From positions 1 through 50,488 of IMG/VR virus record IMGVR_UViG_3300025327_000042: 50,488 nucleotides of DNA; one strand, written 5' to 3'. How positions within the stretch are numbered: the stretch's first letter is position 1; each line of letters opens with the position of its first letter. This DNA comes from a virus. A model generated the notes under the pieces. It saw only the letters and a program-made list of their open reading frames with translations. It made no database searches and was not told where the DNA came from. The translations under genes and the position numbers were made by a program. Of this stretch, positions 18,786 through 43,695 are shown one piece after another.

Positions 18786-18935
18786 CTAGACAGGGTCCAT
18801 CCCGTCGGAGCTAAGCGTGAGGGGCGCGATCGGATCGGAGCCGTCCATGATGATAGCCGCGGTCGGGAACGTGTCTGGACCTTCTGAGATGAAGCCCATC
18901 AGGAGCCACATGAACAGGATGCTACTCGTCAACAT
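18786..18935 (-). CDS. Small membrane-anchored peptide (49 aa)
   Basis: ATG at 18935 lies within the 3' end of the GroES-like gene and the stop is next to the following ATG. Residues ~4-17 are hydrophobic (ILFMWLLMGFI) and the rest is acidic and soluble, like a signal peptide followed by a short external segment. Too short for family assignment. Confidence 0.5.
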   Translation of the reverse strand: MLTSSILFMWLLMGFISEGPDTFPTAAIIMDGSDPIAPLTLSSDGMDPV

Positions 18936-19248
18936 ATGCCATCACCTCGCCTTCTCCGATTATGAAGTAGGGGGTCTCACGCTCGCCGTCCCAGATCGGG
19001 GTCCCGGCGAACTCGTTTACTATGATCCTGCCGCCTGGCTTGATAGCACGGTCCACACCTGGCCCCACGCTTATCACCTCCGCGATGAGCCCGTAGATCC
19101 GTCGATTCGAGTCGGACTGTGCGGGGATGACTAGCCCGTGCGCGACTTGGATCTCATTCCCGCCCGTGAGAGGCTGCGGCTTGTGGACTACTATCCGCGG
19201 GCCGAAGGGCTTTACGGTGTTGATGAAGGGTAGATTACCGTCCACCAC
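18922..19248 (-). CDS. GroES-like co-chaperonin (cpn10)
   Basis: 108 aa, close to the ~97 aa of bacterial GroES. It follows the family pattern: VKPFGPRIVVHKP (12-24, the first strand), a mobile-loop-like segment with HGLVIPA (38-43), EVISVGPGV (57-65), KPGGRIIVNEFAGTPI (70-85) and a closing strand with YFIIGEGEVMAYV (94-106). A co-chaperonin caps the host GroEL chamber. Its place between portal and scaffold suggests help in folding the capsid protein, as T4 gp31 does for gp23. GTG start, overlapping the portal end by 14 bases. Confidence 0.88.
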   Translation of the reverse strand: MVDGNLPFINTVKPFGPRIVVHKPQPLTGGNEIQVAHGLVIPAQSDSNRRIYGLIAEVISVGPGVDRAIKPGGRIIVNEFAGTPIWDGERETPYFIIGEGEVMAYVDE

Positions 19249-21171: not shown

Positions 21172-22989
21172 CTAGATCGACACACCGGTGCGGTCAGCTC
21201 GGAGAACCTTCATCGCTCGGCGATGCATCCTACCGGCCCGCAACTTGTCACTGTCTGCACCACCGTATGACCTCAAGAAGATTTCCTCAGCCTGTGCTGC
21301 CGAGTCTATCCAATCCATTGTACCAGTTGGGAAGTGGCGAATCTCATAGCCAGGGAGCTGGAGGCCGGCACGGACGTAGAGGAGACCTTGACCGAGGATG
21401 TGCCCTACCCGTCGCTTACCACGGTCGATCTTGGCGAACCCCTGCGCGGGGGGTAGCATCTCGATCTCGGGGATGCGTAGCTTCGGGTGCCGGGGTGTGC
21501 CATCACGGGTTACCACAGCTGCCAGTCGTATCGCCGATGCCATGTATGTCTGCGCCGCGACCTTCTCGATGACGGGCTTGATGGATTTCCCGTGGATCTT
21601 GCTCACCATGTCCTCGTACAGCTCGATGAACTGCCAGACAGACTCGTCGGGGCCGTACCTGTCTGCGCGAATGTCGATGTTGAACCGGCGTCCGGTGGCA
21701 CGATCCTTGGCGAACCAGGAGATGCAGGTACGCGCGGCGGTTTTCTCCTGGGAAGAGGCCGGGTCCACCGAGAGCACGTGTGGATCGAGCGTGCCGAGAG
21801 GGATGATCTCCTCGTGGGAGCCCTCGGTGGGGATGATAATGGACCAGAGACGCTCCAGCACGCCGTTTACCCGTACTGGCGCGATGTCGAGCGTGAAGTA
21901 TCGCAGCTTGCTAACGTCGAGGTCGCTGGATTTGGTAGGGTCGTTGAGCCGCTGAGCCGCGAATATGACAGGCCCTTCCTCACGTTCTAGCCTCGCCAGC
22001 GATTCCTTGTCAGGATACGGCCCTTCCTTCCACAGTGACTCATCGGTGGGGGCACAGCCCTGCCGCTCGTCGTCAGACCCCCAGCGGCCACAGGACCCCA
22101 GGCCATGCACGTAGCAGCGGAATACACCCCGCCGCCAGACGGCCCAATCGGTGTAGTCGCTGTGGATCATCGAGTTGACATCGTCGAGAGTCCAGCGATT
22201 CCCCTCGTCGATGACGAAGCCGGCGTCCGGGTGCGCTGGATCGCGGTGCGAAAGCAGGCCGGGCGCTGTCTTGACCCAATCACGTAGTCTCGCCATCTCG
22301 CCGGAGGAATGCCAGTTGTGGTCCCCCACGAGATCGTTGACGATAAGCCCATCGAGCCGGCCTCCGACGATGGCAGTCTCCGTGCCGACGGCGAGCAGGA
22401 ATCCACCGACTAGGTCCAGCTGCCTCCTACCTGGTATGAACATCTCCTCGTCATTGAAGCAGCCGTAGTCGGTGCGGAGCGGGTTGTCCCAGATGGTTTC
22501 GAGGTAGAGCCAGCGGTAGAGGGGGTTGGCCAGGTAGAAACGCCGAATCGACCCGGTGAACCTCGTCGCGGCCTTCTTGGTGTCACCTGCGATGGCGATC
22601 CGATTGTCGGCCCCCTTGATGTGTGGATGTGCGAGAAGGAAGGTCTCGGCACGCTCGATCTCGTTGGGATGGTCGTAACGTTCATCGGGGCGCTGGACAC
22701 CGAGCCAGGGTGGGACGGATCGGGTGTTGCCGGTGGACTTGATATAGCCGCGAGGGTCCTCTAGCAGTCCTCTCTTGTGCTCGCATACGACCCACTGAAT
22801 CCAGTCTTGCCGCTCTTTGAAGACCTCCGGGGTCATGGTGTTCTTGGGTTCGTTATAGCAGACCAACAGCTTCGTGAAGGTGTAGAGGCTGCGACGGGTC
22901 GCTGCTCGCAGGGCCGCGCGAGTTTTCCAGTCGTCCGACGCTATGATCGCGTCGATGTCGGTCCGGGTAAGGTCCTCGGGGCCGGACAT
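21172..22989 (-). CDS. Terminase large subunit (605 aa)
   Basis: DNA packaging motor. A Walker A-like loop is DPRGYIKST (78-86), a variant of the PRGxxKST form used by many phage terminases. The B-type strand is at GRLDGLIVNDLVGD. The nuclease domain begins at VLSVDPASSQ (the first metal-binding Asp near residue 405) and continues with DIRADRYGPDES and HGKSIKPVIEKVAAQ. Full-length ATPase plus nuclease. ATG one base after the preceding stop. Confidence 0.88.
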   Translation of the reverse strand: MSGPEDLTRTDIDAIIASDDWKTRAALRAATRRSLYTFTKLLVCYNEPKNTMTPEVFKERQDWIQWVVCEHKRGLLEDPRGYIKSTGNTRSVPPWLGVQRPDERYDHPNEIERAETFLLAHPHIKGADNRIAIAGDTKKAATRFTGSIRRFYLANPLYRWLYLETIWDNPLRTDYGCFNDEEMFIPGRRQLDLVGGFLLAVGTETAIVGGRLDGLIVNDLVGDHNWHSSGEMARLRDWVKTAPGLLSHRDPAHPDAGFVIDEGNRWTLDDVNSMIHSDYTDWAVWRRGVFRCYVHGLGSCGRWGSDDERQGCAPTDESLWKEGPYPDKESLARLEREEGPVIFAAQRLNDPTKSSDLDVSKLRYFTLDIAPVRVNGVLERLWSIIIPTEGSHEEIIPLGTLDPHVLSVDPASSQEKTAARTCISWFAKDRATGRRFNIDIRADRYGPDESVWQFIELYEDMVSKIHGKSIKPVIEKVAAQTYMASAIRLAAVVTRDGTPRHPKLRIPEIEMLPPAQGFAKIDRGKRRVGHILGQGLLYVRAGLQLPGYEIRHFPTGTMDWIDSAAQAEEIFLRSYGGADSDKLRAGRMHRRAMKVLRADRTGVSI

Positions 22990-26149: not shown

Positions 26150-26410
26150 TTACTCGGCCTTTCCGTCTGCCAGGGCAGCCTTGACCGCTTGCGCCGCGAC
26201 TTCGGCAGCGCCCTTGGCTAGAATCGCGTCCGCCGTGACAAGGTCAAACAGGCCACGCCTCCCGATACTGACATAGACCCGCCCGTTTTTGTGAGACTTC
26301 CACGCGCCGATTTTGACGCCGTTGAAGGTACCGCCTTCATACGGCGTTCCTGCAGCAGGCTTCTTTTCTTTGCCAGCCTCGGACGTAGTGAAGGTAGCCA
26401 GGATTCCCAT
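26150..26410 (-). CDS. Hypothetical small protein (86 aa)
   Basis: ATG at 26410 with GGGAG upstream is preferred over an ATG 12 bases earlier or the much longer frame. The core is a compact beta domain (YEGGTFNGVKIGAWKSHKNGRVYVSIGRRG) followed by Ala-rich helix. First gene of the leftward island reading away from the control region. Confidence 0.65.
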   Translation of the reverse strand: MGILATFTTSEAGKEKKPAAGTPYEGGTFNGVKIGAWKSHKNGRVYVSIGRRGLFDLVTADAILAKGAAEVAAQAVKAALADGKAE

Positions 26411-26539
26411 TAGGTCGCTCCCTTTCATGTTCGCCTTGGGGGTCATTCCCCAGGGGGTCCGGTCACGAGGACCGGTTCCAGCTTGCACCTAGCATGTCCC
26501 ATGCCACGACCCCCAGCGTGGAAAGACAGCGACATTTAC

Positions 26540-26555
26540 GTGTCAAACCTGACAC
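26540..26555. promoter_or_regulatory. Palindromic site 1: GTGTCA-4-TGACAC
   Basis: A perfect 6-bp dyad around AACC. Its reverse complement matches the site at 27060-27077 over almost all positions, so the two are the same element in opposite orientation, about 520 bp apart. Confidence 0.6.
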
Positions 26556-26680
26556 AATCCAAAGCTCTGAATCCAATTACTCGGGTTCATCCAGATTCTT
26601 GGAGATCGTCCCCTTTTCAGGACACAGTGTAACCTTTTCGGCCACCTCCCACTCTGTAGGGAACGGGATCACAGCATGCG

Positions 26681-26711
26681 TGTCACGACATGTCACGACT
26701 CAAAATGACAT
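26681..26711. repeat. Direct TGTCACGAC repeats plus ATGTCA-10-TGACAT
   Basis: TGTCACGACA and TGTCACGACT are tandem with a 10-base period (26681-26700). The second copy and the following TGACAT form a dyad (arms ATGTCA and TGACAT, spacer 10, 26690-26711). The same dyad, with the AAAATGACAT half conserved, recurs at 26979-27000. Confidence 0.6.
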
Positions 26712-26746
26712 GGTAACCCCTTTGTTTTCAACCAGTTGACCGGGAA

Positions 26747-26769
26747 TGTCACGTGTCACCGAGTGTCAC
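26747..26769. repeat. Three tandem TGTCAC units
   Basis: TGTCAC at 26747, 26754 and 26764. The last two share GTGTCACC with a 10-bp period. The array lies just left of the AT-rich core. Confidence 0.6.
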
Positions 26770-26808
26770 CGCGTCCCTGAGAAAGGGTCAAGGCAAAGTT
26801 AAGGCTGT

Positions 26809-26866
26809 ATAAGATCGGTAGTAGATTATATAAGGTATAATACTTAAAATTATAGATGACTAACAC
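26809..26866. other. AT-rich core of the control region
   Basis: Roughly 58 bases composed mostly of A and T (TATATAAG, TATAATAC, TTAAAATTATAG) in a GC-rich genome. Contains TATAAT at 26836-26841, but without a convincing -35. It could be a DNA-unwinding element between iteron groups, or overlapping promoters. Confidence 0.55.
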
Positions 26867-26978
26867 GCGTAGAGCCTCCCCTATATAACTGCACTTTCGG
26901 GTCCTTCCACCTTAAGGCAGGGTGACATCGTGACAATGTCATTTTTGGGCCTAACCCGCTGATAAGGCTGGGGATAGC

Positions 26979-27008
26979 ATGTCACAACCGAAAATGACAT
27001 TCGTGACA
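26979..27008. repeat. Second ATGTCA-10-TGACAT dyad with GTGACA
   Basis: ATGTCA-CAACCGAAAA-TGACAT repeats the 26690-26711 element, followed by GTGACA at 27003. A reversed AAAATGACAT lies at 26936-26945 with GTGACA words at 26922 and 26930. Confidence 0.55.
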
Positions 27009-27013
27009 TAGAT

Positions 27014-27056
27014 CCCGATCCCCAGCGTACGGGATCGGGGAATCTCAAGCTTTTTT
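27014..27056 (+). terminator. Strong hairpin followed by T6, possible terminator
   Basis: CCCGATCCC (27014-27022) and GGGATCGGG (27031-27039) form a perfect 9-bp stem with an eight-base loop. TTTTTT follows at 27051-27056, 12 bases later, longer than usual. It could isolate the control region from the rightward promoter. Confidence 0.4.
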
Positions 27057-27059
27057 CAG

Positions 27060-27077
27060 TGTGTCGGGTTTGACACA
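27060..27077. promoter_or_regulatory. Palindromic site 2: TGTGTC-6-GACACA
   Basis: An inverted repeat with 6-bp arms and spacer GGGTTT, matching site 1 (26540-26555) in reverse complement. It lies about 60 bases upstream of the rightward promoter. Confidence 0.6.
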
Positions 27078-27100
27078 TAGGGCGATAAGGCAGCGAAAGG

Positions 27101-27114
27101 TTGACTTAGGTCAA
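27101..27114. promoter_or_regulatory. TTGAC-4-GTCAA inverted repeat, possible operator
   Basis: A 5-bp dyad around TTAG just upstream of the rightward promoter. Further GGTC and CTTGACC words follow, so the promoter could be covered by a repressor bound here. Confidence 0.4.
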
Positions 27115-27134
27115 GCGTCGCCGGGAGGTCTGGC

Positions 27135-27163
27135 TTGACCTGGGCCGGGCGAGAGTGTAAATT
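27135..27163 (+). promoter_or_regulatory. Rightward early promoter
   Basis: TTGACC (27135-27140), 17-base spacer, TAAATT (27158-27163). The -35 matches consensus in five of six and the -10 in four of six. Expected start near 27170, about 45 bases before the GTG of the first gene. It overlaps a longer open frame, which argues against starts upstream of 27201. Confidence 0.55.
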
Positions 27164-27215
27164 GGCCGGGCTCGGTGGAGCCGGGGAAGCCAAGGACCGC
27201 ATGGAGGGACGTGCA

Positions 27216-27416
27216 GTGGCGGAACGCGAACCGGGGATCAAGGTGAAGGTGAAACGAGGGGTTATCACCGCGGAGGAGGGGATACGGGAGTTGGAGGAGA
27301 AGGCGGGTACTCCCCTAGCGGTAGATAGGGTCAGACGTACTAACACGTACAGATGGTTAGCGAAGCGTGTAGTGTCGAAGCGTGCAGTGTCTACGCGTGG
27401 AGGAGGCAAGCCATGA
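27216..27416 (+). CDS. First early-operon protein, basic, helical (66 aa)
   Basis: GTG at 27216 has GGAGGGAC six bases upstream; ATG at 27201 is an alternative. The N-terminus has a short KVKVK strand, then EEGIRELEEKAG and a basic C-terminus (RWLAKRVVSKRAVS). Small, basic and first after the promoter: could be a regulator or DNA-binding protein. Ends with ATGA overlap. Confidence 0.6.
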   Translation: MAEREPGIKVKVKRGVITAEEGIRELEEKAGTPLAVDRVRRTNTYRWLAKRVVSKRAVSTRGGGKP

Positions 27417-27901
27417 TGAGCGGGAACGCGATACGTAACTTGCAGCTAGAGGCAGCGGCAAGAGCGGCACGAGTAGGTGTGACTCCACTGGTGATCTGGC
27501 CGGAGGATAATGTTGCAGATGTAATCAGACACATCCCCAATATAGGCGACTATATCCCGAAGGGCTGGCGGTTGGATAGTACCATGTTCGTGGATAAGAC
27601 AGGGCTGGGCGCTACTTATGAACCCGCCATGACCTTCGAGAGGCTGTGCGAAGAGATCAAGGCGGGGAAGGGTTATGCGATAGTCGAGGAGGGGCAGTTT
27701 CAGGTCTACATCGGCGAATTTACGCCCCCGCGTGCCGTTCCTGCCTCCCACATCGCCTACAATGTCCACGTTCCCACCAAGAAACGGGTATCCAAGCCGT
27801 CTGGGAAGCCCGCCGTTAAGCGACCGAAGCGTAAGGCTACCCTCGATAGTCCTGCCGACGAATATGGGCTGGAGAGGGCAGCGGCAACGCGGAGGAGGTA
27901 G
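27413..27901 (+). CDS. Hypothetical protein (162 aa)
   Basis: GGAGGAGG precedes the ATG at 27413, which overlaps the previous stop. Soluble alpha/beta core (VADVIRHIPNIGDYIPKGW and GYAIVEEGQFQVYIGEF), followed by a basic linker (KKRVSKPSGKPAVKRPKRK) and an acidic end. No family recognised. Confidence 0.65.
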   Translation: MMSGNAIRNLQLEAAARAARVGVTPLVIWPEDNVADVIRHIPNIGDYIPKGWRLDSTMFVDKTGLGATYEPAMTFERLCEEIKAGKGYAIVEEGQFQVYIGEFTPPRAVPASHIAYNVHVPTKKRVSKPSGKPAVKRPKRKATLDSPADEYGLERAAATRRR

Positions 27902-27904
27902 AAC

Positions 27905-28105
27905 ATGAGCGCACCATTCGACTCGGCAGACAGGATCATCGCCTACGAACAGGGCGAGCTAGAAGAAGAGCAAGTAATCGAACTATTTCAACACTTGGTG
28001 GACACTGGCCTAGCCTGGCAACTACAGGGTAGCTATGGTCGCGCAGCAAAGGAGCTAATAGAAGCGGGGTTAGTGTCACTACCGAAGGGAGGGTGGGATG
28101 TATAA
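27905..28105 (+). CDS. Small conserved phage protein (66 aa)
   Basis: The pattern IIAYEQGELEEEQVIELFQ, then LVDTGLAWQLQGSYGR and ELIEAGLV, is a short helical family found widely in phages (DUF7417-like). Function unknown; presumably a regulator or host-takeover protein. Ribosome site AGGAGG eight bases upstream of ATG. Confidence 0.8.
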   Translation: MSAPFDSADRIIAYEQGELEEEQVIELFQHLVDTGLAWQLQGSYGRAAKELIEAGLVSLPKGGWDV

Positions 28106-28406
28106 GATCCAGGCAGCGCACATGAAACAGATGCTAGAGCATCTACTCTATCCAAGTGAGGGAGGCTTCACCTACGACCTAGACAACGAGAAGTTCCTTA
28201 CGCCGACTAGTGGCTTCGCGGTGGGAGGTTCTCCTTATCCCACTGGTATCCTGGGAGGATGGCTGGAGGGGGAATACGTCTACCTTGACGACGTGGATAT
28301 CCTGGGCAGTAGGGAAGGCGCGATTCGACTAGCGAATGCGCGAGACGAGAAGGCCATCTATGACTTCGCCTCGAAAGAGTCGGTGTACGTGAAGGTGGCG
28401 GCATGA
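28098..28406 (+). CDS. Conserved phage protein (102 aa)
   Basis: Overlaps the previous gene by eight bases. Begins with a helix, then SGFAVGGSPYP and WLEGEYVYLDDVDIL, a beta-rich mid-part, and ends with helices. Similar short proteins are common in early regions of phage genomes, role unknown. Confidence 0.65.
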   Translation: MYKIQAAHMKQMLEHLLYPSEGGFTYDLDNEKFLTPTSGFAVGGSPYPTGILGGWLEGEYVYLDDVDILGSREGAIRLANARDEKAIYDFASKESVYVKVAA

Positions 28407-28597
28407 TGATGCTGCGCGAGGCACTAGAAGAGGCGGTGGATACGATGGAGTACACTGCCAGACGCTTGGAACATGCGGGTTTCTCGCATGCGGCGCTAGA
28501 TGGTACTGTAAGAAGATGCAAGAAGGTGTTGCGCAAGAAGGTGTTGCGGGAGACCGCGGAGCCTAGAAAGCGGCGTGTTGACACGCGAGAGCCATGA
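28403..28597 (+). CDS. Small basic helical protein (64 aa)
   Basis: ATG is coupled by overlap to the previous stop. N-terminal amphipathic helix (REALEEAVDTMEYTARRLEHA), C-terminal run of Lys and Arg with an imperfect repeat (KKVLRKKVLR). Likely DNA- or RNA-binding or a small regulator. Confidence 0.6.
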   Translation: MMMLREALEEAVDTMEYTARRLEHAGFSHAALDGTVRRCKKVLRKKVLRETAEPRKRRVDTREP

Positions 28598-29229
28598 CTA
28601 CCATGACTACCATGACTACATTCTTCCCCTGCAGCCCACGACCATTACCGCCCGATAACTGTCTCGTCCCGCACCGTAGACTGCGTATCCGTCCCGCACG
28701 GATAGACCACAACCAGGTCAGGCGGATCATGCGAGCCTACAAACGCGCCTCGAATGACGGTCATGGATGGTATCATCGTGCCTACACCGCATGCGAAAGG
28801 ATATCAAGGCAAACGGGGAGACCGGTAGAGGTAGTCGCGGCAGTTGTGGCGGCGCTCTCCCCCGCGTGCAAGTGGGAACGTAACCTACAAGATGCTAAGG
28901 CCCTATGTAGCGGTGACAAGACACGGTGTCAGACTTACAGGGCCAACGTCTCCAAGGCAAAGCGCATACTCGCCGGGGAACCGCCCGAGCGTGTACTAGG
29001 TGGGCGCAAGGTGAGGACGTTCCTAGGGCTTATCTTGCACCCCTGGCGGGGAGATGTCGTGTGTGTGGATAGACACGCGAAGGCTGTCGCAGGGGAGACC
29101 CGACTGCTGACCGACTACCGCTACCGATGCGTCGAAGCGGCATACCTGTGGGCGGCACGGAAGCTGGGGATGCTACCGTGTCAAGTGCAGGCTGTGACTT
29201 GGGTTGACTGGCGAGTTGCGCCGTTTTGA
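28594..29229 (+). CDS. Conserved phage protein, HhH-glycosylase-like pattern (211 aa)
   Basis: ATG is the first of three repeats of ATGACTACC, giving MTTMTTMTT, so translation may start at any of three ATGs. The core has AAVVAALSPACKWERNLQDA, KAKRILAGEPPERVLGG, KVRTFLG and VVCVDRHA, typical of a family of unknown phage proteins (possibly DUF7178) that resembles helix-hairpin-helix DNA glycosylases, with the Asp of VDRHA in the place of the catalytic residue. The activity is inferred. Confidence 0.7.
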   Translation: MTTMTTMTTFFPCSPRPLPPDNCLVPHRRLRIRPARIDHNQVRRIMRAYKRASNDGHGWYHRAYTACERISRQTGRPVEVVAAVVAALSPACKWERNLQDAKALCSGDKTRCQTYRANVSKAKRILAGEPPERVLGGRKVRTFLGLILHPWRGDVVCVDRHAKAVAGETRLLTDYRYRCVEAAYLWAARKLGMLPCQVQAVTWVDWRVAPF

Positions 29230-29240
29230 GGGAGGTAGAC

Positions 29241-29471
29241 ATGGACATTGGTAAGAACCTAGCGCGCGCGAGGAGAGCACGTGCGGCACTCAGGTGCTAC
29301 GTGGAACGTGCTGGGACCACACAGGGGAGTGTAGCTCTAGACGAGGCTCTAGACGAGACCGATGTAATCGATCTTGTGACTGACTTGTACCACCTGTGTC
29401 ACCAGAATGGCTGGCCTTTCGATCCTAGAATAGCGCAAGGACACTTCATGGAGGAGGCTGGGCTAGCATGA
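29241..29471 (+). CDS. Hypothetical helical protein (76 aa)
   Basis: ATG at 29241 behind GGGAGGT is preferred. Basic N-terminus, then an acidic middle (ALDEALDETDVIDLV) and a Cys-containing end. Unknown. Ends in an ATGA overlap with the next zinc-ribbon gene. Confidence 0.6.
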   Translation: MDIGKNLARARRARAALRCYVERAGTTQGSVALDEALDETDVIDLVTDLYHLCHQNGWPFDPRIAQGHFMEEAGLA

Positions 29472-29638
29472 CAGAGATGACCAACAACAAAGTCGAACTT
29501 CTCTGTCTGGGTTGTAGTAAGATGATATATCTAGAGAAGGCTAAGCTAGATGGACATACTAACTTTCTGCACTACTACTGCGTAGACTGTCAGACGGCAA
29601 GGTGGAAAGAGCGGCTGTTTAACGATAACATGGGATAG
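29468..29638 (+). CDS. Small zinc-ribbon protein (56 aa)
   Basis: Too short for a typical 60-residue cut-off but well supported: ATGA overlap upstream, CLGC and CVDC pairs separated by 24 residues, basic helix after the second pair (RWKERL). A short treble-clef or ribbon protein of unknown role; likely nucleic-acid or protein interaction. Confidence 0.65.
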   Translation: MTEMTNNKVELLCLGCSKMIYLEKAKLDGHTNFLHYYCVDCQTARWKERLFNDNMG

Positions 29639-29650
29639 GGAGATAAGGAC

Positions 29651-29821
29651 ATGACCAAGAAAGATTACGTGAAGTTTGCGGAGATGTTGCGGACGATACC
29701 GCTAGAGGGACCGGCCTTGTGTTACTGGAACCATGTTGTGGAGGGTGTCGCCGACATCTTCGCAGCGGATAACCCTAACTTTGACCGGGTGCGGTTCGTG
29801 CGTGCGTGTCGGGACATGTAG
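29651..29821 (+). CDS. Small conserved phage protein (56 aa)
   Basis: Begins MTKKDYVKFAEMLRTIP and ends with FAADNPNFDRVRFVRAC, a short family very common in actinobacterial, proteobacterial and other phages (KKDY...ADNPRFDRxRFxxAC). Function unknown. Good GGAGATAAGGAC sequence upstream. Confidence 0.8.
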   Translation: MTKKDYVKFAEMLRTIPLEGPALCYWNHVVEGVADIFAADNPNFDRVRFVRACRDM

Positions 29822-29826
29822 CATCA

Positions 29827-29877
29827 ATGCGCCTGAAGACGGTTAGAGAGTTGCGGGAGGCGTTGGAGGGGTTATGA
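29827..29877 (+). pseudogene. Truncated N-terminus of a KTVxELREAL-type gene (16 aa)
   Basis: Starts with ATG six bases after the previous stop; MRLKTVRELREALEGL then TGA. The same opening begins longer phage proteins that continue with PDD...PV, so this seems a decayed remnant, or a premature stop. Nothing recognisable follows in any frame up to the gene at 29955. Confidence 0.4.
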
Positions 29878-29954
29878 TGGCGAACTTGGGTGGATAAGTG
29901 TACCAACCACAGTCTTATCTAGTAGTTAGGATCAAGTAGGAGTGCGGAGAGGTG

Positions 29955-30191
29955 ATGCCACGTAGCAGGCGAGTCAAGATAGACATAGTGGGGCTGCTGG
30001 ATGGCGCTACCACTGAAAAGATCCATGTCCTGCTAGAACAGGACGCGGCCGGTCGCTGGTACTTCGATGTCCGGCCATTCCGGCGGCGGGTTGGGTGGAG
30101 GTTGCCGCTGGCAGACGTGGTTCGGCTTGTGGTACTATCGATCATCAAGGCTGAGGCGAGAATGGAAAGGACGAGGAATGCGTCGTACTAG
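29955..30191 (+). CDS. Hypothetical basic protein (78 aa)
   Basis: ATG at 29955 (a GTG at 29952 is an alternative) with GGAGAG nearby. N-terminus SRRVKIDIVGLLDGATTEK, a hydrophobic strand-rich middle, and an amphipathic helix at the end. Unknown. Confidence 0.6.
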   Translation: MPRSRRVKIDIVGLLDGATTEKIHVLLEQDAAGRWYFDVRPFRRRVGWRLPLADVVRLVVLSIIKAEARMERTRNASY

Positions 30192-30203
30192 GAAGGAGTG
30201 AAC

Positions 30204-30461
30204 ATGACTATCAATCCCGCCAGCCCCCTCTACGCAACTATCGAGGTGGGGTGTAGAGATGCGCCATCGGACTGCCGAAAGTCGAGTCGTAGTGGCACGG
30301 ACTATGCTATCCTGGATGTTGCTGGTCCGTGGGGCGTCGCGCGGCTGTGGGTGGAAGAGGACGGGTCGATCGAGGTTACCTTCACTCGGACGTTGCCGAG
30401 ATCGGCGGCGGACAGTCAACCAGAAGAGAAGTGGGAGGTGCTAGGGACATGGCAGAAATAA
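30204..30461 (+). CDS. Hypothetical protein (85 aa)
   Basis: ATG at 30204 with AAGGAG five bases upstream. Short N-terminal segment with CRDAPSDC, then an alternating beta pattern (DVAGPWGVARLWVEEDGSI). Overlaps the next gene by 13 bases. Confidence 0.6.
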   Translation: MTINPASPLYATIEVGCRDAPSDCRKSSRSGTDYAILDVAGPWGVARLWVEEDGSIEVTFTRTLPRSAADSQPEEKWEVLGTWQK

Positions 30462-30838
30462 GGACCGTAGTGGGAGCTATGCTGGACGGGTTAGCGCAAC
30501 TGAGCGACACGCTGCTCGCAGCGGACGCGGAACTGCGTGCACGGGAGACGAGCGAGGACAGGAAGATCAGGCTGGTTTTGGCGGGCTATGCGACAGCATA
30601 TCTAACGAATAGCCTGCTGGCACTACGCAAGGCATACGTGAACCTCTGTCTCCTGGAAAACGTTGTGACTCGCCCGGCCGGGGCACTGACTGATGCCGGG
30701 ACACGGGCTAACGTCGTCGAGGCAATAACCGATGAAGCCACAGCCCTGTTTGAGCCCGCGAAGGCACGCTTACTAAAGACAGTTCTGACCATGTTTCCGT
30801 TCTCCGACATGAGGAATGTCAGGGAGACGGAGAACTAG
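30449..30838 (+). CDS. Hypothetical helical protein (129 aa)
   Basis: Nearly all-helical from start to end (MLDGLAQLSDTLLAADAELR and YATAYLTNSLLALRKAYVN), suggesting a small helical bundle. GGGAGG lies upstream of the ATG within the previous gene. No family assignment. Confidence 0.6.
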   Translation: MAEIRTVVGAMLDGLAQLSDTLLAADAELRARETSEDRKIRLVLAGYATAYLTNSLLALRKAYVNLCLLENVVTRPAGALTDAGTRANVVEAITDEATALFEPAKARLLKTVLTMFPFSDMRNVRETEN

Positions 30839-30851
30839 ATGAGGAGACTAC

Positions 30852-31208
30852 GTGTTCAAGAATGAGCTGAGCTATGCTGCCGGGGTGATGGACGCGGTGG
30901 GGAGGTTCTACATCGGACCTAACGGGGCGGTGGTGAAGACTCTCAAGATCCATCCCGTCGTGATGGGACAGTTGGTGGCGATCTTGGGGGGTGTCGGTAG
31001 CACGTTGCGGTCAACCTGGCACTGTCCCGCTGGGCAGCAGAGAGAGGTCTGTGCTAAGCTGCTGCCGTATCTGATCGCACGCCGGAGTGAAGCGAGTGTC
31101 GTGTTGCAGTATCGGCTGACACAGCCTACTAGGAAACCCGGCTGGAAGATAACGGCCGCGGTTCGGCGGTTTAGGGAGAAGCTGGTAGCGCTACGGGGTG
31201 CCAAGTGA
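30852..31208 (+). CDS. Degenerate LAGLIDADG homing-endonuclease-like protein (118 aa)
   Basis: GTG start. Residues 9-17 (AAGVMDAVG) correspond to the LAGLIDADG helix, with Val16 where the catalytic acid should be, and are followed by GRFYI, the usual first strand. Later text matches the rest of a single-domain LAGLIDADG fold, including KLLPYLIARRSEASVVL. Probably inactive, either a decayed mobile endonuclease or a domesticated DNA-binding protein. No intron or intein is visible nearby. Confidence 0.65.
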   Translation: MFKNELSYAAGVMDAVGRFYIGPNGAVVKTLKIHPVVMGQLVAILGGVGSTLRSTWHCPAGQQREVCAKLLPYLIARRSEASVVLQYRLTQPTRKPGWKITAAVRRFREKLVALRGAK

Positions 31209-31361
31209 CTCTCTGACGCGGCTGGGCGATCATACAGCATGACGGGAAGGCACTCTCTTGGTCCCCAGGTGACCCAAGGCTATTTACGCAATGTCCGCGT
31301 CGCCGTCGAGGTGAGGATCGTCGAGGGAGGTAGGCATGAGTGAACCGCATGGGGCAAAGCC
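31209..31361 (+). other. Short intergenic segment with leader-type peptides
   Basis: 153 bases without a defended gene. A 34-residue open frame lies at 31239-31343. A 10-residue frame (31336-31368, GGGAGGTAGGC upstream) ends inside the start of the following gene, so its translation could regulate that gene. Both are weak. Confidence 0.35.
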
Positions 31362-31595
31362 ATGCTAGACGCAGAAGCCCGGGCTATGGAGCTGCCGGAT
31401 GACTCCGCCGTGTGTTCGACTTGTGCCGCGGTGACTTGCGAGCTGGCCGTAGGGCAGGCCCTTATGGAGGAGGGCTGGAGCACGGCCGAGCAGTTGCGCG
31501 TGGGTAGGGAGGTGAAGGATCTGGTCGAGGCGCTTCTACCCCAGGAAGGCGAGCCGTGTGGGAGACACAGGTTGAAGAAGGAGGATTACGAATGA
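31362..31595 (+). CDS. Hypothetical protein with CSTC motif (77 aa)
   Basis: Helical, with two pairs of Cys near residues 19-29 (CSTCAAVTC) and one near the end; could be a zinc-binding helical protein. ATG overlaps a 10-residue leader frame; no Shine-Dalgarno right before it. Ends with ATGA into the next. Confidence 0.6.
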   Translation: MLDAEARAMELPDDSAVCSTCAAVTCELAVGQALMEEGWSTAEQLRVGREVKDLVEALLPQEGEPCGRHRLKKEDYE

Positions 31596-31735
31596 AGCAT
31601 CGGTACATCGTAGTGTCAGCAGAGCCCGGTCCCCGTGTACAGGTAGAAGACGGCGTCGCGTCCCTACAGGGCCGGTGTCGTAACGGCTCTTGGTACCGCC
31701 TGGTAAACCTGTACAAGGATGGCGAGGTTGCATAA
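31592..31735 (+). CDS. Small beta-rich protein (47 aa)
   Basis: Coupled via ATGA to the previous gene with AGGAGG upstream. Looks like a small SH3-like barrel (YIVVSAEPGPRVQVEDGVA, then GSWYRLVNLYKDGEV). No assignment; stop directly abuts the ATPase start. Confidence 0.5.
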   Translation: MKHRYIVVSAEPGPRVQVEDGVASLQGRCRNGSWYRLVNLYKDGEVA

Positions 31736-32641
31736 ATGATCTCGCCAACCACCATCACCCGCGGTACGCCTACACGAACCATGATCCCCGGGCTCACACA
31801 ATCCGCCCCTGAGATAGTTGAGACGGAGCCGGAGGATGTCCGGCTGTCATTGCTAGCACAAGGAGATAGCGGGACGGGCAAGACAGAGGGCATCCGACGC
31901 CTCCTGCTCGCCGGCTACAACGTCGTTGTCCTGGCCATCGAAGCGAAGATGCAGAGGTTGTTGGCTCTCCGGCCACAGACTGTCTACATCGACGGGCCGG
32001 TGATCGAGCGCGTGACGGGTACGAAGCGCCCGCCAACCATCGACGAGAAGTATCAGCGTCTCATCGCGTTCAAGGAGGCGCTGGCGGAGGGTAAGTATAG
32101 AGAACACAAGGGTAAACCCATCGACATCATCGCGGGGGATGGTGTCATGGAGGTCATGGATATCATCAAGGCGTACCGGCTAAAGAACATCCCCATCTCC
32201 AAGTCTACAGGGGAGAAGAACACTTACGCGGCCTACGACCAGATCGGGACGGACGGGGTGGATTTCATCAAGGCGTGCAAGGTTGCGGCTAGTGAGGTGT
32301 CGCGGCAGTATGGTATGCCACCTGTGGGGATGTACTGGACATGCGGGGAGGAGTATGAGCCGGCCGCGGGGAAGTACGTACCCATTCTGCCGGGGCGGAT
32401 CGCGCCTCGGGCGTTGCCTTACCAGTTCGAGGCGATCTTGAGACTCGCGGTCGAGCGCGGGGCGGACGGGCAGCCGGTCTTTGTGGCTCACACGGTCGCC
32501 AGCGAGCAGTGGGTCGCCAAGAGCCCGCCCGGTGTGCTAGACTCTCGCATCGCCGGGCCTGTGGGAGCCGGCGCGCCGGACATGGGCGTCATCTGGAAGC
32601 AGCTGTTAGACTATTACATGATCGGAGAGGCGGACAAGTGA
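31736..32641 (+). CDS. RecA-like AAA ATPase (AAA_24 / Sak4-like)
   Basis: 301 aa. Walker A is GDSGTGKT at 43-50; a Walker B-like strand IDIIAGDGV is near residue 130; later segments PVGMYWTCGEEY and PYQFEAILRLAV fit the phage nucleotide-binding family that includes Sak4-type recombinases. In many phages such a gene is followed by a candidate ssDNA-binding protein and a Cas4-type nuclease, as here. Role: annealing or strand exchange during replication and repair, inferred. Confidence 0.75.
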   Translation: MISPTTITRGTPTRTMIPGLTQSAPEIVETEPEDVRLSLLAQGDSGTGKTEGIRRLLLAGYNVVVLAIEAKMQRLLALRPQTVYIDGPVIERVTGTKRPPTIDEKYQRLIAFKEALAEGKYREHKGKPIDIIAGDGVMEVMDIIKAYRLKNIPISKSTGEKNTYAAYDQIGTDGVDFIKACKVAASEVSRQYGMPPVGMYWTCGEEYEPAAGKYVPILPGRIAPRALPYQFEAILRLAVERGADGQPVFVAHTVASEQWVAKSPPGVLDSRIAGPVGAGAPDMGVIWKQLLDYYMIGEADK

Positions 32642-32766
32642 GCACGAGCCGGGTGGGCAAGGTGATCGGCATGGCGTCCGACATTCTCTATTGGGGGTGC
32701 GTGGTCACGATCATCGTAGCGGTCCTGTACTTTCTGATGACCGTCGATCCTGTCGGAGGTAAGTGA
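32638..32766 (+). CDS. Small single-span membrane protein (42 aa)
   Basis: GTG at 32638 shares bases with the ATPase stop, with GGAGAGG seven to eight bases upstream. Residues ~16-37 form one hydrophobic helix (YWGCVVTIIVAVLYFLM). Unknown; may be a superinfection-type or regulatory membrane peptide. Confidence 0.5.
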   Translation: MSTSRVGKVIGMASDILYWGCVVTIIVAVLYFLMTVDPVGGK

Positions 32767-32768
32767 AG

Positions 32769-32900
32769 ATGACAAAGACAAGGGTAATCCGCGAGCTAGA
32801 ACAGTTAGAGAAGAGGCTGGGGGACCTAGCCAACACGATCCTCCGGGAAGGTATCACGGATGGACCGGAGCCGTTTCCTGGAGGAAAGAATGTCGAGTGA
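32769..32900 (+). CDS. Small helical protein (43 aa)
   Basis: ATG follows the previous stop closely. N-terminal 30 residues are a charged amphipathic helix (RELEQLEKRLGDLANTI) and the end is Pro/Gly-rich. Overlaps the next gene by 11 bases. Confidence 0.5.
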   Translation: MTKTRVIRELEQLEKRLGDLANTILREGITDGPEPFPGGKNVE

Positions 32901-33072
32901 TGTGGACGCGGCGGTGCGTGCAGCGTTCATCGCCGCACGTGACAAGCGCGGGAGTATGATGACTCACGAGCTAGCGTTCCTCGACGGGGCGGTGTGGGCG
33001 TATGAGCGCATGGAGTGCATGGCGAGAGCTGTCGAAGCCTATAAGATGGAAACAGGGGAGAATGAGGGATGA
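32890..33072 (+). CDS. Hypothetical helical protein (60 aa)
   Basis: ATG at 32890 with GGAGGAAAG upstream chosen over the ATG at 32860. Helical throughout, with AAFIAARDKRG and AVWAYERMECMARAVEAY. Unknown function. ATGA into the HTH gene. Confidence 0.6.
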   Translation: MSSDVDAAVRAAFIAARDKRGSMMTHELAFLDGAVWAYERMECMARAVEAYKMETGENEG

Positions 33073-33419
33073 ATGTAGACGAGTGGGCAGCCACGGTGCG
33101 AGGCTTCGCACAGCTACGGCAGATATCGGGCTCCGCTGAGCCGCCTGGCTTTACACTTCCACCGGCAACGGGGCTGGCACAGCTTCGGGAGTTATCCGAC
33201 CACCTGCACATCGCTGAGGTGCCTGGCAGTAACAGGATGTCTGGTGCGGGGTTCGAGGGAGCCGCACGCTTCACCCGCGCCCGCACCGTGAATCAAGTAG
33301 CTAAGCGGCTAGGTGTCACCGCGCCTACTGTCTACTGCCATATCAACAAGCTAGCAGGATCTATTACCTCCCTCCCTGGACATAAGTACCAGGCTACGTC
33401 GAATGGAGCGACAAAGTAA
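33069..33419 (+). CDS. Helix-turn-helix DNA-binding protein (116 aa)
   Basis: The C-terminal ~45 residues contain TVNQVAKRLGVTAPTVYCHIN, a clear HTH of the transcription-regulator/transposase type. The N-terminal half is Pro/Gly-rich with a repeated AQLR(Q/E)(I/L)S. Likely a regulator or replication-initiation factor, given its place beside the ATPase and candidate ssDNA-binding genes, and a candidate to bind the repeats at 26.5-27.1 kb. Confidence 0.65.
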   Translation: MNVDEWAATVRGFAQLRQISGSAEPPGFTLPPATGLAQLRELSDHLHIAEVPGSNRMSGAGFEGAARFTRARTVNQVAKRLGVTAPTVYCHINKLAGSITSLPGHKYQATSNGATK

Positions 33420-33640
33420 TGTCCGTCTTCAAGAGTGATTACAATGGGTGGGAGGTTGATCTGGGCGATCCGGCTATCAAAGCCCAGCTGGGTGAGCAGT
33501 TGAGGGTAACCCGCGAGGAGCTGACCGCGGCCATCAACATGGAGAACGTGAGTGACCGACTGTTCGCGCGCATTCTCAAGAACCGCAGCAAAGCACACCA
33601 ACTACTCCTGGAAAGGGTTCCAGGATCTAAAGGAGAATAG
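33419..33640 (+). CDS. Hypothetical protein (73 aa)
   Basis: Starts TAATG against the HTH gene. Helical with the phrase VTREELTAAINMENVSDRLF and a basic end. No assignment; probably in the recombination block. Confidence 0.6.
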   Translation: MSVFKSDYNGWEVDLGDPAIKAQLGEQLRVTREELTAAINMENVSDRLFARILKNRSKAHQLLLERVPGSKGE

Positions 33641-33645
33641 AGTCC

Positions 33646-34332
33646 ATGCCTAACAGTTACGAAGATGCCTTGGGGGAGTATCAGGCTTTCGGTGATGCGA
33701 GGATCGTCCTGCCCGCGTCCATGTATCCCGTCAAGCTGGCGATCCGCGATGTCAAGACCACGGATGTTCAGAATGAGGGAGCGGAGAACGAGTTCGGTGG
33801 CGTCCCCTTCGTCGATCTTGTCGGCGACATCTATGCCGGGCCGTTCAGCGGAGAGTCTATCCAGGCCCGCCTCAAAATGCAGCCTGGGAAGTCAGGTGGC
33901 CTGCTCGGCTTCCTCAAGGGTGCGACGAAGACTATCACCCGGCAGCCCGCAGCGAGTGAGATCCTGGCGAAGTTCTTTGACTTCTCGCATCTGGGCCAAG
34001 GTGACCCCAAGGACAAGGCGTATCGCACCGCCGTCCGCGAAGCCCTGCGGGATCAGTTCTGGCAGATGGAGCCTGCTCAGCGACTAGAGTTCATGCTCAA
34101 GTATCTGCGGGTCCAGCAGTGGGATCAGAAGTCAGTCATCGCGCAGGTGGGGGTACGGGAGTACGACAGTAACAACATCAACCCGGTGACTGGCCAGCCG
34201 TATGTCAACACGGTCAATACGTGGCAGGGGTTCTTCGACGTGACCGACCCGGCTAAGGGACTGGCCTTTGTCAACTCCGTGGAGTTCCCCAAGCAGGCCG
34301 CGTGGGCAGCGGAGATGGGAGTGGGGCAGTGA
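33646..34332 (+). CDS. Candidate single-stranded DNA-binding protein (228 aa)
   Basis: AAAGGAG upstream of ATG. The N-terminal region is beta-rich (MYPVKLAIRDVKTTDVQNEG, then VPFVDLVGDIYAGPFSG), as in an OB-type fold; a Gly/Lys-rich linker (QPGKSGGLLGFLKG) and a helical C-terminus follow. Genes in this place after a Sak4-like ATPase commonly encode ssDNA-binding proteins, for example DUF669-type. Assignment rests on context and strand pattern only. Confidence 0.45.
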   Translation: MPNSYEDALGEYQAFGDARIVLPASMYPVKLAIRDVKTTDVQNEGAENEFGGVPFVDLVGDIYAGPFSGESIQARLKMQPGKSGGLLGFLKGATKTITRQPAASEILAKFFDFSHLGQGDPKDKAYRTAVREALRDQFWQMEPAQRLEFMLKYLRVQQWDQKSVIAQVGVREYDSNNINPVTGQPYVNTVNTWQGFFDVTDPAKGLAFVNSVEFPKQAAWAAEMGVGQ

Positions 34333-34502
34333 TCGGTCTCTGGGAGGGCGACCAGGAGGAGGATGAGAGGGTGGATGATCTCTCCTGCGGATCGCTCATT
34401 CCTGCCGTCGAGCCGCCCGAGAGTCTGGTTCTGTATGATGCCCGCGGAACTGAGCTGCGACGACAGAGAGTGGTTGGGTTCAGACAGCGGGGTGGGCGAT
34501 GA
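34329..34502 (+). CDS. Hypothetical acidic protein (57 aa)
   Basis: GTG at 34329, with GGGAG upstream, overlaps the preceding stop. Very acidic first half (EGDQEEDERVDD), then PESLVLYDARGTELRRQ. Part of the coupled chain. Confidence 0.55.
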   Translation: MIGLWEGDQEEDERVDDLSCGSLIPAVEPPESLVLYDARGTELRRQRVVGFRQRGGR

Positions 34503-34804
34503 CCGGGGCAATCACACTGTTCGTCGCGCTGGCCATAACTAGCCCGCCGAGGCTGGAGGTGGCAGGGTTAGCAAAGCCTCCCGTGATACGGCTAGAGGAC
34601 GGGAGCCGCGGGGTGCAGGTAGGAGTGAAGTTTCCCGTGTCGCAGCATGTTGGGGTGTACGGGATGATGACGCACTTGCCGAGTATAACAGGGCACGTGG
34701 AGCTGGGACACGGGTATACGATGCCGTTCACGTTGACCGCGAGACCAGTGTACAACGTGGGAGTGAGCATCGACGTGCCGGTGGGGCGGAAGCGAGATCG
34801 GTAG
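34499..34804 (+). CDS. Hypothetical protein with signal-like N-terminus (101 aa)
   Basis: ATGA overlap upstream. Residues 1-14 are hydrophobic (MTGAITLFVALAIT), then a beta-rich part (YGMMTHLPSITGHVELGHGY) with membrane-strand-like pattern. Might be secreted or membrane-associated; unknown. Confidence 0.55.
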   Translation: MTGAITLFVALAITSPPRLEVAGLAKPPVIRLEDGSRGVQVGVKFPVSQHVGVYGMMTHLPSITGHVELGHGYTMPFTLTARPVYNVGVSIDVPVGRKRDR

Positions 34805-34805
34805 T

Positions 34806-34910
34806 ATGACTACGCACCGTGCGCCCGCTCGCCCACGGTGTTTTGTCGAGGGGCGGTCCTGGGAACACGACGGCCTGGGATCGCCCCGAGGCGTAGGAGC
34901 TGAGGGATGA
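34806..34910 (+). CDS. Possible small basic peptide (34 aa)
   Basis: ATG follows the previous TAG by one base and ends with ATGA into the next gene. Arg/Pro-rich with a single Cys. Little else to support it. Confidence 0.35.
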   Translation: MTTHRAPARPRCFVEGRSWEHDGLGSPRGVGAEG

Positions 34911-35107
34911 AGAAGCCGAAACGCAGCAAGCGGCCGAAGAGGCGCCGCAACTACATCTGGGTTGTGGAGGGTGAGTTCGGTTGGGGTTGGCAATCTACCC
35001 CGGCCGTCGGGGTCACCCGGATTGAGGCCACGGAGGAGCGGCGCTCCTGGGCCGCACAGAATCCAAGCGATCGTTTCCGCATCGTGAAGTACGAGGCGGT
35101 CCGATGA
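34907..35107 (+). CDS. Small basic protein (66 aa)
   Basis: N-terminus of 14 nearly all Lys/Arg/Pro residues, then a compact Trp-rich domain (WVVEGEFGWGWQS) and a basic end. Likely nucleic-acid binding. Coupled to neighbours by ATGA overlaps on both sides. Confidence 0.6.
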   Translation: MKKPKRSKRPKRRRNYIWVVEGEFGWGWQSTPAVGVTRIEATEERRSWAAQNPSDRFRIVKYEAVR

Positions 35108-35478
35108 GGCGAGAAACGAGAGGGTTGGTGACGCTGGTCGGCGTTGGTGCCGCGATGGCTGTCGCCGTGATAATGAGTCTGCACTTAAGACCACACAAGC
35201 CAGCAGTCCCTACGTTGACAGGAGTCAGCTCTCTTCGCCCGCCCGAGCTGCTAGCGCCGATGACGCGGATCAAGTGTACCGGGTTCGGCTTCGATCTACG
35301 GCCGGCTGCGGAAGGCGCGGGCGTTCTGCACGTGGACGAGGCGACGATTTCCGAGCTGTTCCTGGACGTGCAATGCAAGGACAGCGCGGCGGTGCGGGTG
35401 ACACTCAGAGGCGAGGAGCATGTCATCGTCCGGTGGGATGGGCGTGTGGAGATTTACGGGCCGGGGGTGATGAGATGA
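35104..35478 (+). CDS. Single-span membrane protein with external beta domain (124 aa)
   Basis: Residues ~8-25 are a hydrophobic anchor after a basic start; the remaining domain is beta-rich with two Cys (IKCTGFGF and DVQCKDS), which could be disulfide bonded outside the membrane. Unknown role. Confidence 0.55.
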   Translation: MRRETRGLVTLVGVGAAMAVAVIMSLHLRPHKPAVPTLTGVSSLRPPELLAPMTRIKCTGFGFDLRPAAEGAGVLHVDEATISELFLDVQCKDSAAVRVTLRGEEHVIVRWDGRVEIYGPGVMR

Positions 35479-35861
35479 AGCGATACACGCCGGTCGTAGG
35501 CGATTGCAGCTTGACTCACGCCACATGTCCGCAAGGCGTGACCCACCGCATCGACTACGAGGAGCGGGCGGATGGGGAGTGGTGCCGAGCCTCTGAGGTC
35601 GATGCCGAGATCCAGCGGCTGCATAAGCGGATCATCGACCTCCACACCGCCGCGGCCTACAGATGCGAGGCTCACGAGGACGAGGAGGCGGCTGGGATCT
35701 GCCCGTGCTGCGAGCGGGCGGAGGTGGCGCGGCTCCGGGCTGCGTTGGATCTCTCGGTGCGTGGTGAGATGGAGGAGACGGCGCGGCGGATGGATCTGGA
35801 GCAGGAGATCGAGCGGCGCAAAGACCGTTCACTTTGGCCACCAGCGAGGAAGGTGACATGA
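35475..35861 (+). CDS. Coiled-coil protein with Cys pair (128 aa)
   Basis: ATG at 35475 chosen in the 3' end of the previous gene. N-terminal domain with Cys, then CEAHEDEE, CPCCE, and a long C-terminal charged helix (RRMDLEQEIERRKD). Could be a zinc-binding coiled-coil regulator; no family recognised. Confidence 0.6.
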   Translation: MKRYTPVVGDCSLTHATCPQGVTHRIDYEERADGEWCRASEVDAEIQRLHKRIIDLHTAAAYRCEAHEDEEAAGICPCCERAEVARLRAALDLSVRGEMEETARRMDLEQEIERRKDRSLWPPARKVT

Positions 35862-41706: not shown

Positions 41707-41708
41707 TC

Positions 41709-42270: not shown

Positions 42271-43695
42271 GTGGACAGCCTTGAAGTCTACCGGGAACAG
42301 TTGGACCAGCTCCTCGATGTTGCCATCAACGTCGAGGGGGACGAGGAACTTCTAGGGAAGGTCGTAGCACTCGCGAACATCACGCACGCGAATGCCACCC
42401 CGGCCGAGTGGGAGTCCCTTTGTCAGCGCATCCGCACGGTCTTCAATATCGATGAGCACGACCTCGCGCGGGCGTTGGGGGTAACGACACCACCCGACAA
42501 GAGTGTCCCGCTCGCAGCGCCCGTTTCTTTCGAGTCGTTGGTAACAGATGGGTGGTTCGGCCGGTACCTGGAATACACAGCCGAGTCAGAGGCCCCCGCG
42601 CAATTCCACTTCGGTGCGATGGCGGCGTGTATATCAGGGGCGCTGGCGAGACGCCCGCTGATCCAGTGGTCGGTGGCACCCACCTACCCTAACCTGTATG
42701 TACTACTGATAGGGCCTACAGGATCACGGAAGTCGTCGGCGATGAAGATGGCGGGGAGTCTAGTCACACGAGCGTTCCCGACGACCAACATCCTACCCTC
42801 CGAGGGCTCACAGCAAGGCTATGCACGAGCCCTACGACGCCGCTATGCCGAGACGGCCCGGGCCGCGGACGGCCTCATACTGGCATCCGAGTACGGCGTG
42901 CTGGTAGGTAAGGACAAGTATAAGACCGAGCTGGCAAAGTGGCTGACCGACTGGTACGACTGCCCGGACAAGTGGTCGAGGGCACTTTCCATGGAGGAGT
43001 TCTACGAGCTGGACAATGTATACCTGTGCCTGTGCGGATGTTCCACGATGAGTTGGCTGTTGGACCTGCCCCCCGACGCTGTGAAGGGCGGGCATCTACC
43101 ACGCCACATCCCCTTCGAGGCGGCAGGGAGACGGCATCGAATGGCACTGCCCAAGTTCGATGAGCGGCTGGCCGCTGAGCTGATCGAGTCTCTGGGGGTG
43201 CGCCTCAAGACGGTCATGGAGCACATGGCGTTTGATCCCAGCGCCGAGAAGTATCTCGTGTCCTGGTATGAGGGCGAGCTATGTCGCCAGGAAGGGGCTA
43301 CCCAGGATGAGCAGGTGCTGGCCTGGTACGCTCGCAAGCAGGCGCACGTTATCAAGTTGGCGGTCGTCTGGCAAGTCGCCGATGGTGGCCCGCCCGACGC
43401 GCTCCAGGCTGAGTGGTTGCATCGGGCACGACTTGTCCTTGACTGGTGCGATTCGACGGTGTACAATGTCTACCGGCAACTCGGTGTCACCGAGGAGGGC
43501 GCGCCCGTGGAGGCTGTGTTGAGGTTCATCCAGAGCAGAGGCGGAAAGGCTCAGCAGTCTGACATAGTCCGCGCGTTCAGGAACAGGTACAACGCCGGCC
43601 GGGTGAAGGGGGCGTTGCAGACGCTCGCGGCCGCGAGGATGCTGCTGGAACGTAAAGGCCCTGCCTGGTTGGGCTCGGTGTGGGAGGTGAGATGA
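42271..43695 (+). CDS. Replicative helicase/primase-type ATPase (DUF3987-like, 474 aa)
   Basis: Walker A is GPTGSRKSS at 148-156. The segments QFHFGAMAACISGALARRP and APTYPNLYVLL before it, and the downstream LILASEYGVL and LCGCSTMSWLL, follow the DUF3987 phage helicase pattern. A winged-helix-like C-terminus (GGKAQQSDIVRAFRNRYN) could bind DNA. It follows the polymerase genes; probably the phage replicative helicase. GTG start, GAGAGG upstream. Confidence 0.7.
   Translation: MDSLEVYREQLDQLLDVAINVEGDEELLGKVVALANITHANATPAEWESLCQRIRTVFNIDEHDLARALGVTTPPDKSVPLAAPVSFESLVTDGWFGRYLEYTAESEAPAQFHFGAMAACISGALARRPLIQWSVAPTYPNLYVLLIGPTGSRKSSAMKMAGSLVTRAFPTTNILPSEGSQQGYARALRRRYAETARAADGLILASEYGVLVGKDKYKTELAKWLTDWYDCPDKWSRALSMEEFYELDNVYLCLCGCSTMSWLLDLPPDAVKGGHLPRHIPFEAAGRRHRMALPKFDERLAAELIESLGVRLKTVMEHMAFDPSAEKYLVSWYEGELCRQEGATQDEQVLAWYARKQAHVIKLAVVWQVADGGPPDALQAEWLHRARLVLDWCDSTVYNVYRQLGVTEEGAPVEAVLRFIQSRGGKAQQSDIVRAFRNRYNAGRVKGALQTLAAARMLLERKGPAWLGSVWEVR

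Follow-up and report, generated by a model that had tools for sequence, protein, structure and literature searches.

Replication origins are unknown for most phages represented only by metagenomic sequence, and the locus described here raises the question whether a repeat-rich gap between two divergent gene blocks is the place where replication of such a genome begins. An earlier note, made from the sequence alone, had proposed the gap as a candidate origin. Comparison with relatives, which keep the layout, and with other viruses, in which similar arrays lie beside initiator genes, supports this proposal without proving it. The region is probably an iteron-type replication origin of the phage, and perhaps also an operator.

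The genome and the divergent gap

The window, i.e. the whole stretch of DNA analysed, is the entire IMG/VR virus record IMGVR_UViG_3300025327_000042 and is 50,488 bases long. Its ends (positions 1-1036 and 49445-50488; 1,036 and 1,044 bases) are 80.7% alike. Another contig, IMGVR_UViG_3300002407_000155 (L002, G001), is 99.8% identical to positions 36476-50327 and continues into positions 1-7797. The two like ends and the contig crossing the join indicate a genome that closes into a circle of about 49.45 kb. The overlap appears to be strain-variable, the sequence pointing to a circular or permuted genome and to an overlap derived from diverged strains. It is located where a 1423-aa structural gene begins. 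A relative, G004, closes by an exact 127-base end repeat.

The phage genes of the window encode the terminase, structural proteins, Sak4/AAA_24, a UDG-exonuclease and polymerase A pair, a DUF3987 primase-helicase and a cell-wall hydrolase. Two separate ORFs make up the polymerase A module, one for the UDG and 3'-5' exonuclease (38246-40330) and one for the polymerase itself (40391-41407). The structural block contains a probable GroES-like (Cpn10) protein at 18922-19248; Pfam recognises one Cpn10 among the window ORFs, and this ORF is the closest match to the GroES of vir526 (E 0.003). An early gene with a DUF7178 domain is also found in Mycobacterium and Streptomyces phages. Searches of named phages with the DNA and with the terminase found nothing, and an Rfam search gave no match.

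The segment 26489-27200 is the sole divergent gap between the leftward late block and the rightward early block (Table 1). Inspection of the ORFs revealed no credible gene within it, in agreement with the earlier note, and the gap is non-coding. The GC skew of the window bends at about 27 kb and has its minimum as a plateau from about 9 to 26.5 kb, a profile confounded by gene orientation. A sigma-70-like promoter candidate lies between the array and the early block, although matches of its quality are expected by chance in the scan used.

Table 1. Coordinates of the gap features, gene blocks and candidate proteins in the window
Feature	Position	Strand	Remarks
Large terminase (TerL)	21172-22989		
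Leftward structural/late block	26488 down to 1, then across the join 50488 to 45768		in gene direction
First ORF of leftward block	26150..26488	-	112 aa, without family match; left border of gap
Left outer near-palindrome	26540..26555		GTGTCAAACCTGACAC
Site group 1	26681..26711	+	TGTCACGACATGTCACGACTCAAAATGACAT; two TGTCAC (+), one AAAATGACAT
Site group 2	26747..26769	+	three tandem TGTCAC, spacings 7 and 10
AT-rich core	26806..26866		candidate DNA-unwinding element
AT palindrome	26836..26854		TATAATACTTAAAATTATA, at symmetry centre
Site group 3	26922..26945	-	two GTGACA (-), one inverted AAAATGACAT decamer
Site group 4	26980..27008		TGTCACAACCGAAAATGACATTCGTGACA; site order a rough mirror of group 1
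Hairpin	27014..27039		CCCGATCCC-N8-GGGATCGGG
Right outer near-palindrome	27061..27076		GTGTCGGGTTTGACAC; mirrored orientation relative to the left one
Sigma-70-like early-block promoter candidate	27135..27163	+	TTGACC-N17-TAAATT, 9/12 match; outside array
First ORF of rightward block	27201..27416	+	71 aa, basic; right border of gap
Rightward early/replication block	27201-45642		in gene direction
116-aa protein	33069..33419	+	weak HTH match; earlier-proposed binder
DUF3987 helicase/primase-type protein (phrog_14296)	42271..43695	+	Walker A, winged-helix-like C-terminus; candidate initiator

The repeat array and its AT-rich core

The gap contains nine copies of the hexamer TGTCAC/GTGACA, six on the plus strand (26681, 26691, 26747, 26754, 26764 and 26980) and three on the minus strand (26922, 26930 and 27003). 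They occupy 328 bp, in which about 0.3 copies are expected, and their spacings within groups are 10, 7, 10 and 8. The largest number per 340 bp is nine in the window and at most five in 200 dinucleotide-preserving shuffles. The earlier note had described nine hexamers in about 330 bp, seemingly enriched over their surroundings, and both statements hold. The count over the whole window, suggested there as a check, is 44 against a shuffle mean of 28, and 44 was reached in one of 100 shuffles. The word is thus mildly common overall and strongly clustered in the gap, and the outcome named in the earlier note as refuting, hexamer counts in the gap no higher than elsewhere, is not what the counts show. 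An unbiased scan of 6- and 7-mers in 500-bp windows across 50 kb ranks GTGACA in the gap at the top (1.8e-10).

Of the shorter core TGTCA/TGACA there are 15 copies within 611 bp, where 1.54 are expected (Poisson 1e-10); on each side of the AT-rich core these are arranged as an outer near-palindrome and two groups of three. The decamer AAAATGACAT, also reported previously as three copies in both orientations, occurs exactly three times in the whole window, always in the gap (chance 0.03). It contains the second class of site found in the gap, TGTCATTTT. Positions 26978-27000 and 26689-26711 form a direct repeat with 87% identity.

The AT-rich tract noted earlier at 26809-26866 is confirmed; taken as 26806-26866, it contains the lowest-GC 58-bp stretch of the window, with 22% GC compared to a mean of 60%. 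The hexamers flank it and are mostly directed towards it. The sites have their mirror centre at the middle of the AT palindrome (26845), as five oppositely oriented site pairs share a midpoint at 26844-26846; taken alone, this symmetry is borderline (P about 0.05). The hairpin mentioned in the earlier note is real. It is followed by a run of six T (TTTTTT, 27051-27056) and was not called by a terminator scan. The array is real and significantly above background, and an AT-rich element stands beside it, both as expected of an iteron-type origin; the core is a candidate for the unwinding role.

Relatives with the same layout and a changed word

Searches with the terminase identified two relatives, L018 and L019, whose terminases are about 50% identical to that of the window. 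L018 carries 16 copies of TGTCCC(G) at 2395-2916 around an AT core at about 2672-2697, and L019 carries 10 copies at 557-876 around a core at about 695-745. Both arrays lie upstream of the late block, and the TGTCCC(G) word ranked first in an unsupervised k-mer scan of L019. The inner sites across the core are 159 bp apart both in the window and in L018. When the hexamers of the three phages are pooled, 13 point towards the core and 4 away from it on the left, and 17 and 1, respectively, on the right (Fisher 2e-5); the inward orientation is found in each phage. A changed word in a conserved layout is as expected for sites that co-evolve with a phage protein. In L018 the array is flanked by a 470-aa ORF on one side and the late block on the other, both running the same way, so only the window and L019 show the divergent setting clearly.

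Other relatives differ. The 3 kb upstream of the L273 terminase are free of an array, and L020 and L021 have CATATG and CACCCC words in place of the TGTC array. The complete-looking G004 is devoid of both a TGTC array and a detectable DUF3987 homologue, which fits a co-variation of the two, but is a single case. A near-identical contig (L004, the same as L016) has four differences in 1 kb, none of them inside the sites; such contigs are uninformative about constraint because the differences are too few. The large terminase of L021 (9998-12589), and likewise that of L020, has an intein-like insert of about 260 residues, from CNPGEAPILMSD to YVVWGIASSN, which is absent from the window's terminase.

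TGTC[AC]CG arrays in other viruses

Viral contigs were scanned for three CGGGACA or three TGTCACG separated by short spacers. TGTCCCG triplets were found in at least 120 contigs and TGTCACG triplets in at least 120. Arrays of at least five sites among the matches listed were then scored for an initiator-type ORF within 300 bp, which was present at 111 of 198 loci (68/104 for TGTCCCG and 43/94 for TGTCACG). Compared to random positions in the same loci, and again among the matches listed, PrimPol-AAA_25 ORFs adjoin 52 TGTCCCG arrays (15.6 expected) and 28 TGTCACG arrays (9.6 expected), and O/DnaD-like ORFs adjoin 16 (3.0 expected) and 15 (2.9 expected), respectively; some of these arrays may be non-independent relatives. 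Blind clustering of the ORFs neighbouring the listed matches gave as the commonest family proteins of about 620-670 aa, at a median of 74-119 bp from the array, which are the PrimPol-AAA_25 helicases. Among the listed arrays, the median distance beyond the 3' end of the helicase gene is about 55 bp; with an O/DnaD-like gene, the array falls within the gene itself. In one family (L257:1928-3088) the TGTCAC iterons code for part of the O-like protein and are read as a repeated DVTS/VTS peptide.

To avoid circularity, named phages were chosen by helicase similarity alone, the motif being unused. Rhizobium phages 16-3 and RHph_X2_25 have 15 and 16 copies of CGTGACA, respectively, in the gap that follows the helicase gene on its 3' side. 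In 16-3 this gene is p101 and the gap measures 0.4 kb. At the corresponding place, immediately 3' of the helicase-primase gene, Roseobacter phage CRP-823 (L279:4050-4300) has 11 CTACAA and Idiomarinaceae phage 1N2-2 (L282:3960-4290) has 11 GGTACA; these two arrays are probably origins that use other words. Caulobacter phage GB2A and Gordonia phage Trine have no iterons 3' of the helicase gene. These results show that short iterons 3' of a PrimPol-AAA_25 helicase gene are common, not universal, and that TGTCACG is one of several words.

The divergent gaps of distant phages with a DUF3987 helicase (MW202554, vir526, Mel-JY34, MD01 and 119X) contain no TGTC array, and have other enriched words or none. 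In vir526, an archaeal-virus record, all ten GCCGCTA of the genome fall in one 500-bp stretch at about 9001-9500 (L263; P 1e-29), and all five AGGCGCG lie at 43062-43562 (L268), near the divergent gap, as a second word array of this record.

No report of TGTCAC/GGGACA phage origins was found in the open-access literature searched, where the sharing of one heptamer family by the arrays of unrelated initiators looks to be unreported.

Candidate binding proteins

Pfam and profile searches recognised no PrimPol-AAA_25 or O/DnaD-like protein in the window, so the argument rests on the shared word and layout and not on a shared initiator. An 80-aa ORF (32830-33069) was among the best of the chance-level profile matches (E 0.08) and is not believed to be an initiator of the kind found beside the arrays. 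The first guess for the binder would be the DUF3987 helicase, whose C-terminal stretch has a weak DUF7343 match and reads like a winged helix. Its gene is 15 kb away from the array, and its single-sequence AlphaFold model is of low confidence (mean pLDDT 41.5). The earlier note had named the HTH protein at 33069 as a candidate, which the searches do not support. Its Pfam HTH matches are all sub-threshold, it has no homologue in the related records, which are mostly fragments, and its single-sequence model is likewise of low confidence (mean pLDDT 39.8). The DUF3987 helicase appears at least as good a candidate, and the HTH protein, although a possible binder, the weaker one.

Function of the region

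Several findings argue for an origin. The short word that is most enriched in the window clusters around the stretch of lowest GC; L018 and L019 retain the layout with a diverged word, and the pooled sites point inward; the same words adjoin replication-initiator genes elsewhere far above chance; and 16-3 and RHph_X2_25, selected without the motif, carry the CGTGACA array 3' of the helicase gene. The distance of the DUF3987 helicase gene and the absence of a TGTC array from distant DUF3987 phages count against it. From the analysis we infer protein binding, melting of the AT core, a start of replication and the identity of the initiator, as follows. A phage-encoded initiator would bind iterons of the TGTCAC(GA) type, which are grouped in twos and threes at intervals of about one helical turn and lie to either side of the AT core. 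Binding would melt the core, the replicative helicase would load, and the forks would leave towards the early block and the late block. The two divergent promoters on either side of the array may also be under the control of this site.

Since the gap separates the starts of both blocks, regulation alone could explain the sites: a phage regulator would act on TGTCA half-sites, and the array would be a multi-site operator for the early and late promoters and not an origin. The array is in the only divergent gap, an early promoter candidate is present, and the outer near-palindromes resemble dimer operators and contain TTGACA, a -35-like hexamer. However, the sites cluster on the AT core, about 300 bp from either first gene and away from the promoter candidate; elsewhere the same words lie within replication genes or on their 3' side, positions hardly suited to an operator; and Pfam scans of the window ORFs recognised no repressor family. 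We consider a pure operator, the main rival of the origin, unlikely.

A packaging site (pac or cos) bound by the small terminase subunit is very improbable. The array is upstream of the terminase genes, where the late block begins, and the genome assembles as a circle, like headful-packaged genomes, but 3.5 kb separate the array from TerL, no TerS candidate includes it, packaging needs no AT core with inward iterons, and the TGTC arrays of other phages are tied to replication genes and not to the terminase. Still less credence is given to an attachment site or a partition centromere. In the attP of tyrosine recombinases a core is flanked by arms of short repeats, centromeres are arrays of repeats, and the window layout resembles either, with arm-type integrase sites around the AT core in the former case. 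Pfam scans of the main ORFs, which may miss divergent members, revealed no integrase, recombinase, ParA or ParB, and a search of bacterial genomes with the terminase returned no prophage and no relative. That a common word built up by chance in a gap richer in AT is refuted, despite the mild excess of TGTCAC over the window, by clustering far outside the shuffles and by the recurrence of the layout in L018 and L019 with another word.

Beyond the origin reading of this one region, a wider proposal can be offered tentatively. TGTC[AC]CG might be an origin word common to many tailed phages, used by unrelated initiators (PrimPol-AAA_25, O/DnaD-like and here perhaps DUF3987), and in this phage group the origin might have become detached from the gene of its initiator and fused with the region that controls the early and late blocks. 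If this is true, origins can be located in hundreds of viral contigs, and their initiators indicated, by a plain search for TGTC[AC]CG triplets, and the recognition rules of phage initiator-helicases become directly testable.

Comparison with known systems

The L5-type stoperators of cluster A mycobacteriophages have the consensus GGTGGMTGTCAAG with the core TGTCA. This core is common to the window sites, and the DUF7178 early gene is shared with Mycobacterium phages. Stoperators are asymmetric and dispersed over the genome, whereas the window sites are concentrated in a single gap, surround an AT core and have different flanking letters; no GGTGG precedes the TGTCA cores of the gap, and neither the dispersal nor the extended 13-bp consensus is found.

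The iteron origins of plasmids RK2, F and P1 combine repeated initiator sites with an AT-rich unwinding element (PMC4980987); the window has repeated sites beside a candidate element of this kind. Their iterons are 17-19 bp or longer and are bound by a plasmid Rep; the window words are 6-8 bp long, and no such Rep was recognised. The lambda origin consists of iterons and an AT-rich stretch inside gene O, and is bound by the O protein (PMC3349717). Iterons beside an AT-rich stretch are found in the window as well, and the TGTC[AC]CG arrays inside O/DnaD-like genes of other phages are a further likeness to lambda. In lambda, however, four 18-bp iterons are joined to the AT stretch within the gene, whereas the window sites are shorter, lie on both sides of the core and are non-coding, and O/DnaD profiles match no window protein.

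Via a C-terminal domain, the helicases SaPI Rep and Cch2 attach to short iterons placed immediately downstream of the genes encoding them; once bound, they act as helicases (PMC7581432). The window resembles SaPI Rep, SCCmec Cch2 and, by inference, the PrimPol-AAA_25 phages in having many very short tandem iterons about one helical turn apart, and shares the word CGTGACA with Rhizobium phage 16-3. Origins of initiator-helicases have the array directly 3' of the helicase gene, whereas in the window no PrimPol-AAA_25 gene adjoins the array, which is in a divergent gap, 15 kb from the sole helicase-primase candidate, and this candidate belongs to another family, DUF3987. As no PrimPol-AAA_25 protein is recognised, the region would work like a PrimPol-AAA_25 origin and is not classed as one. 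The comparison suggests an origin of a kind already known, which is new for this group of phages.
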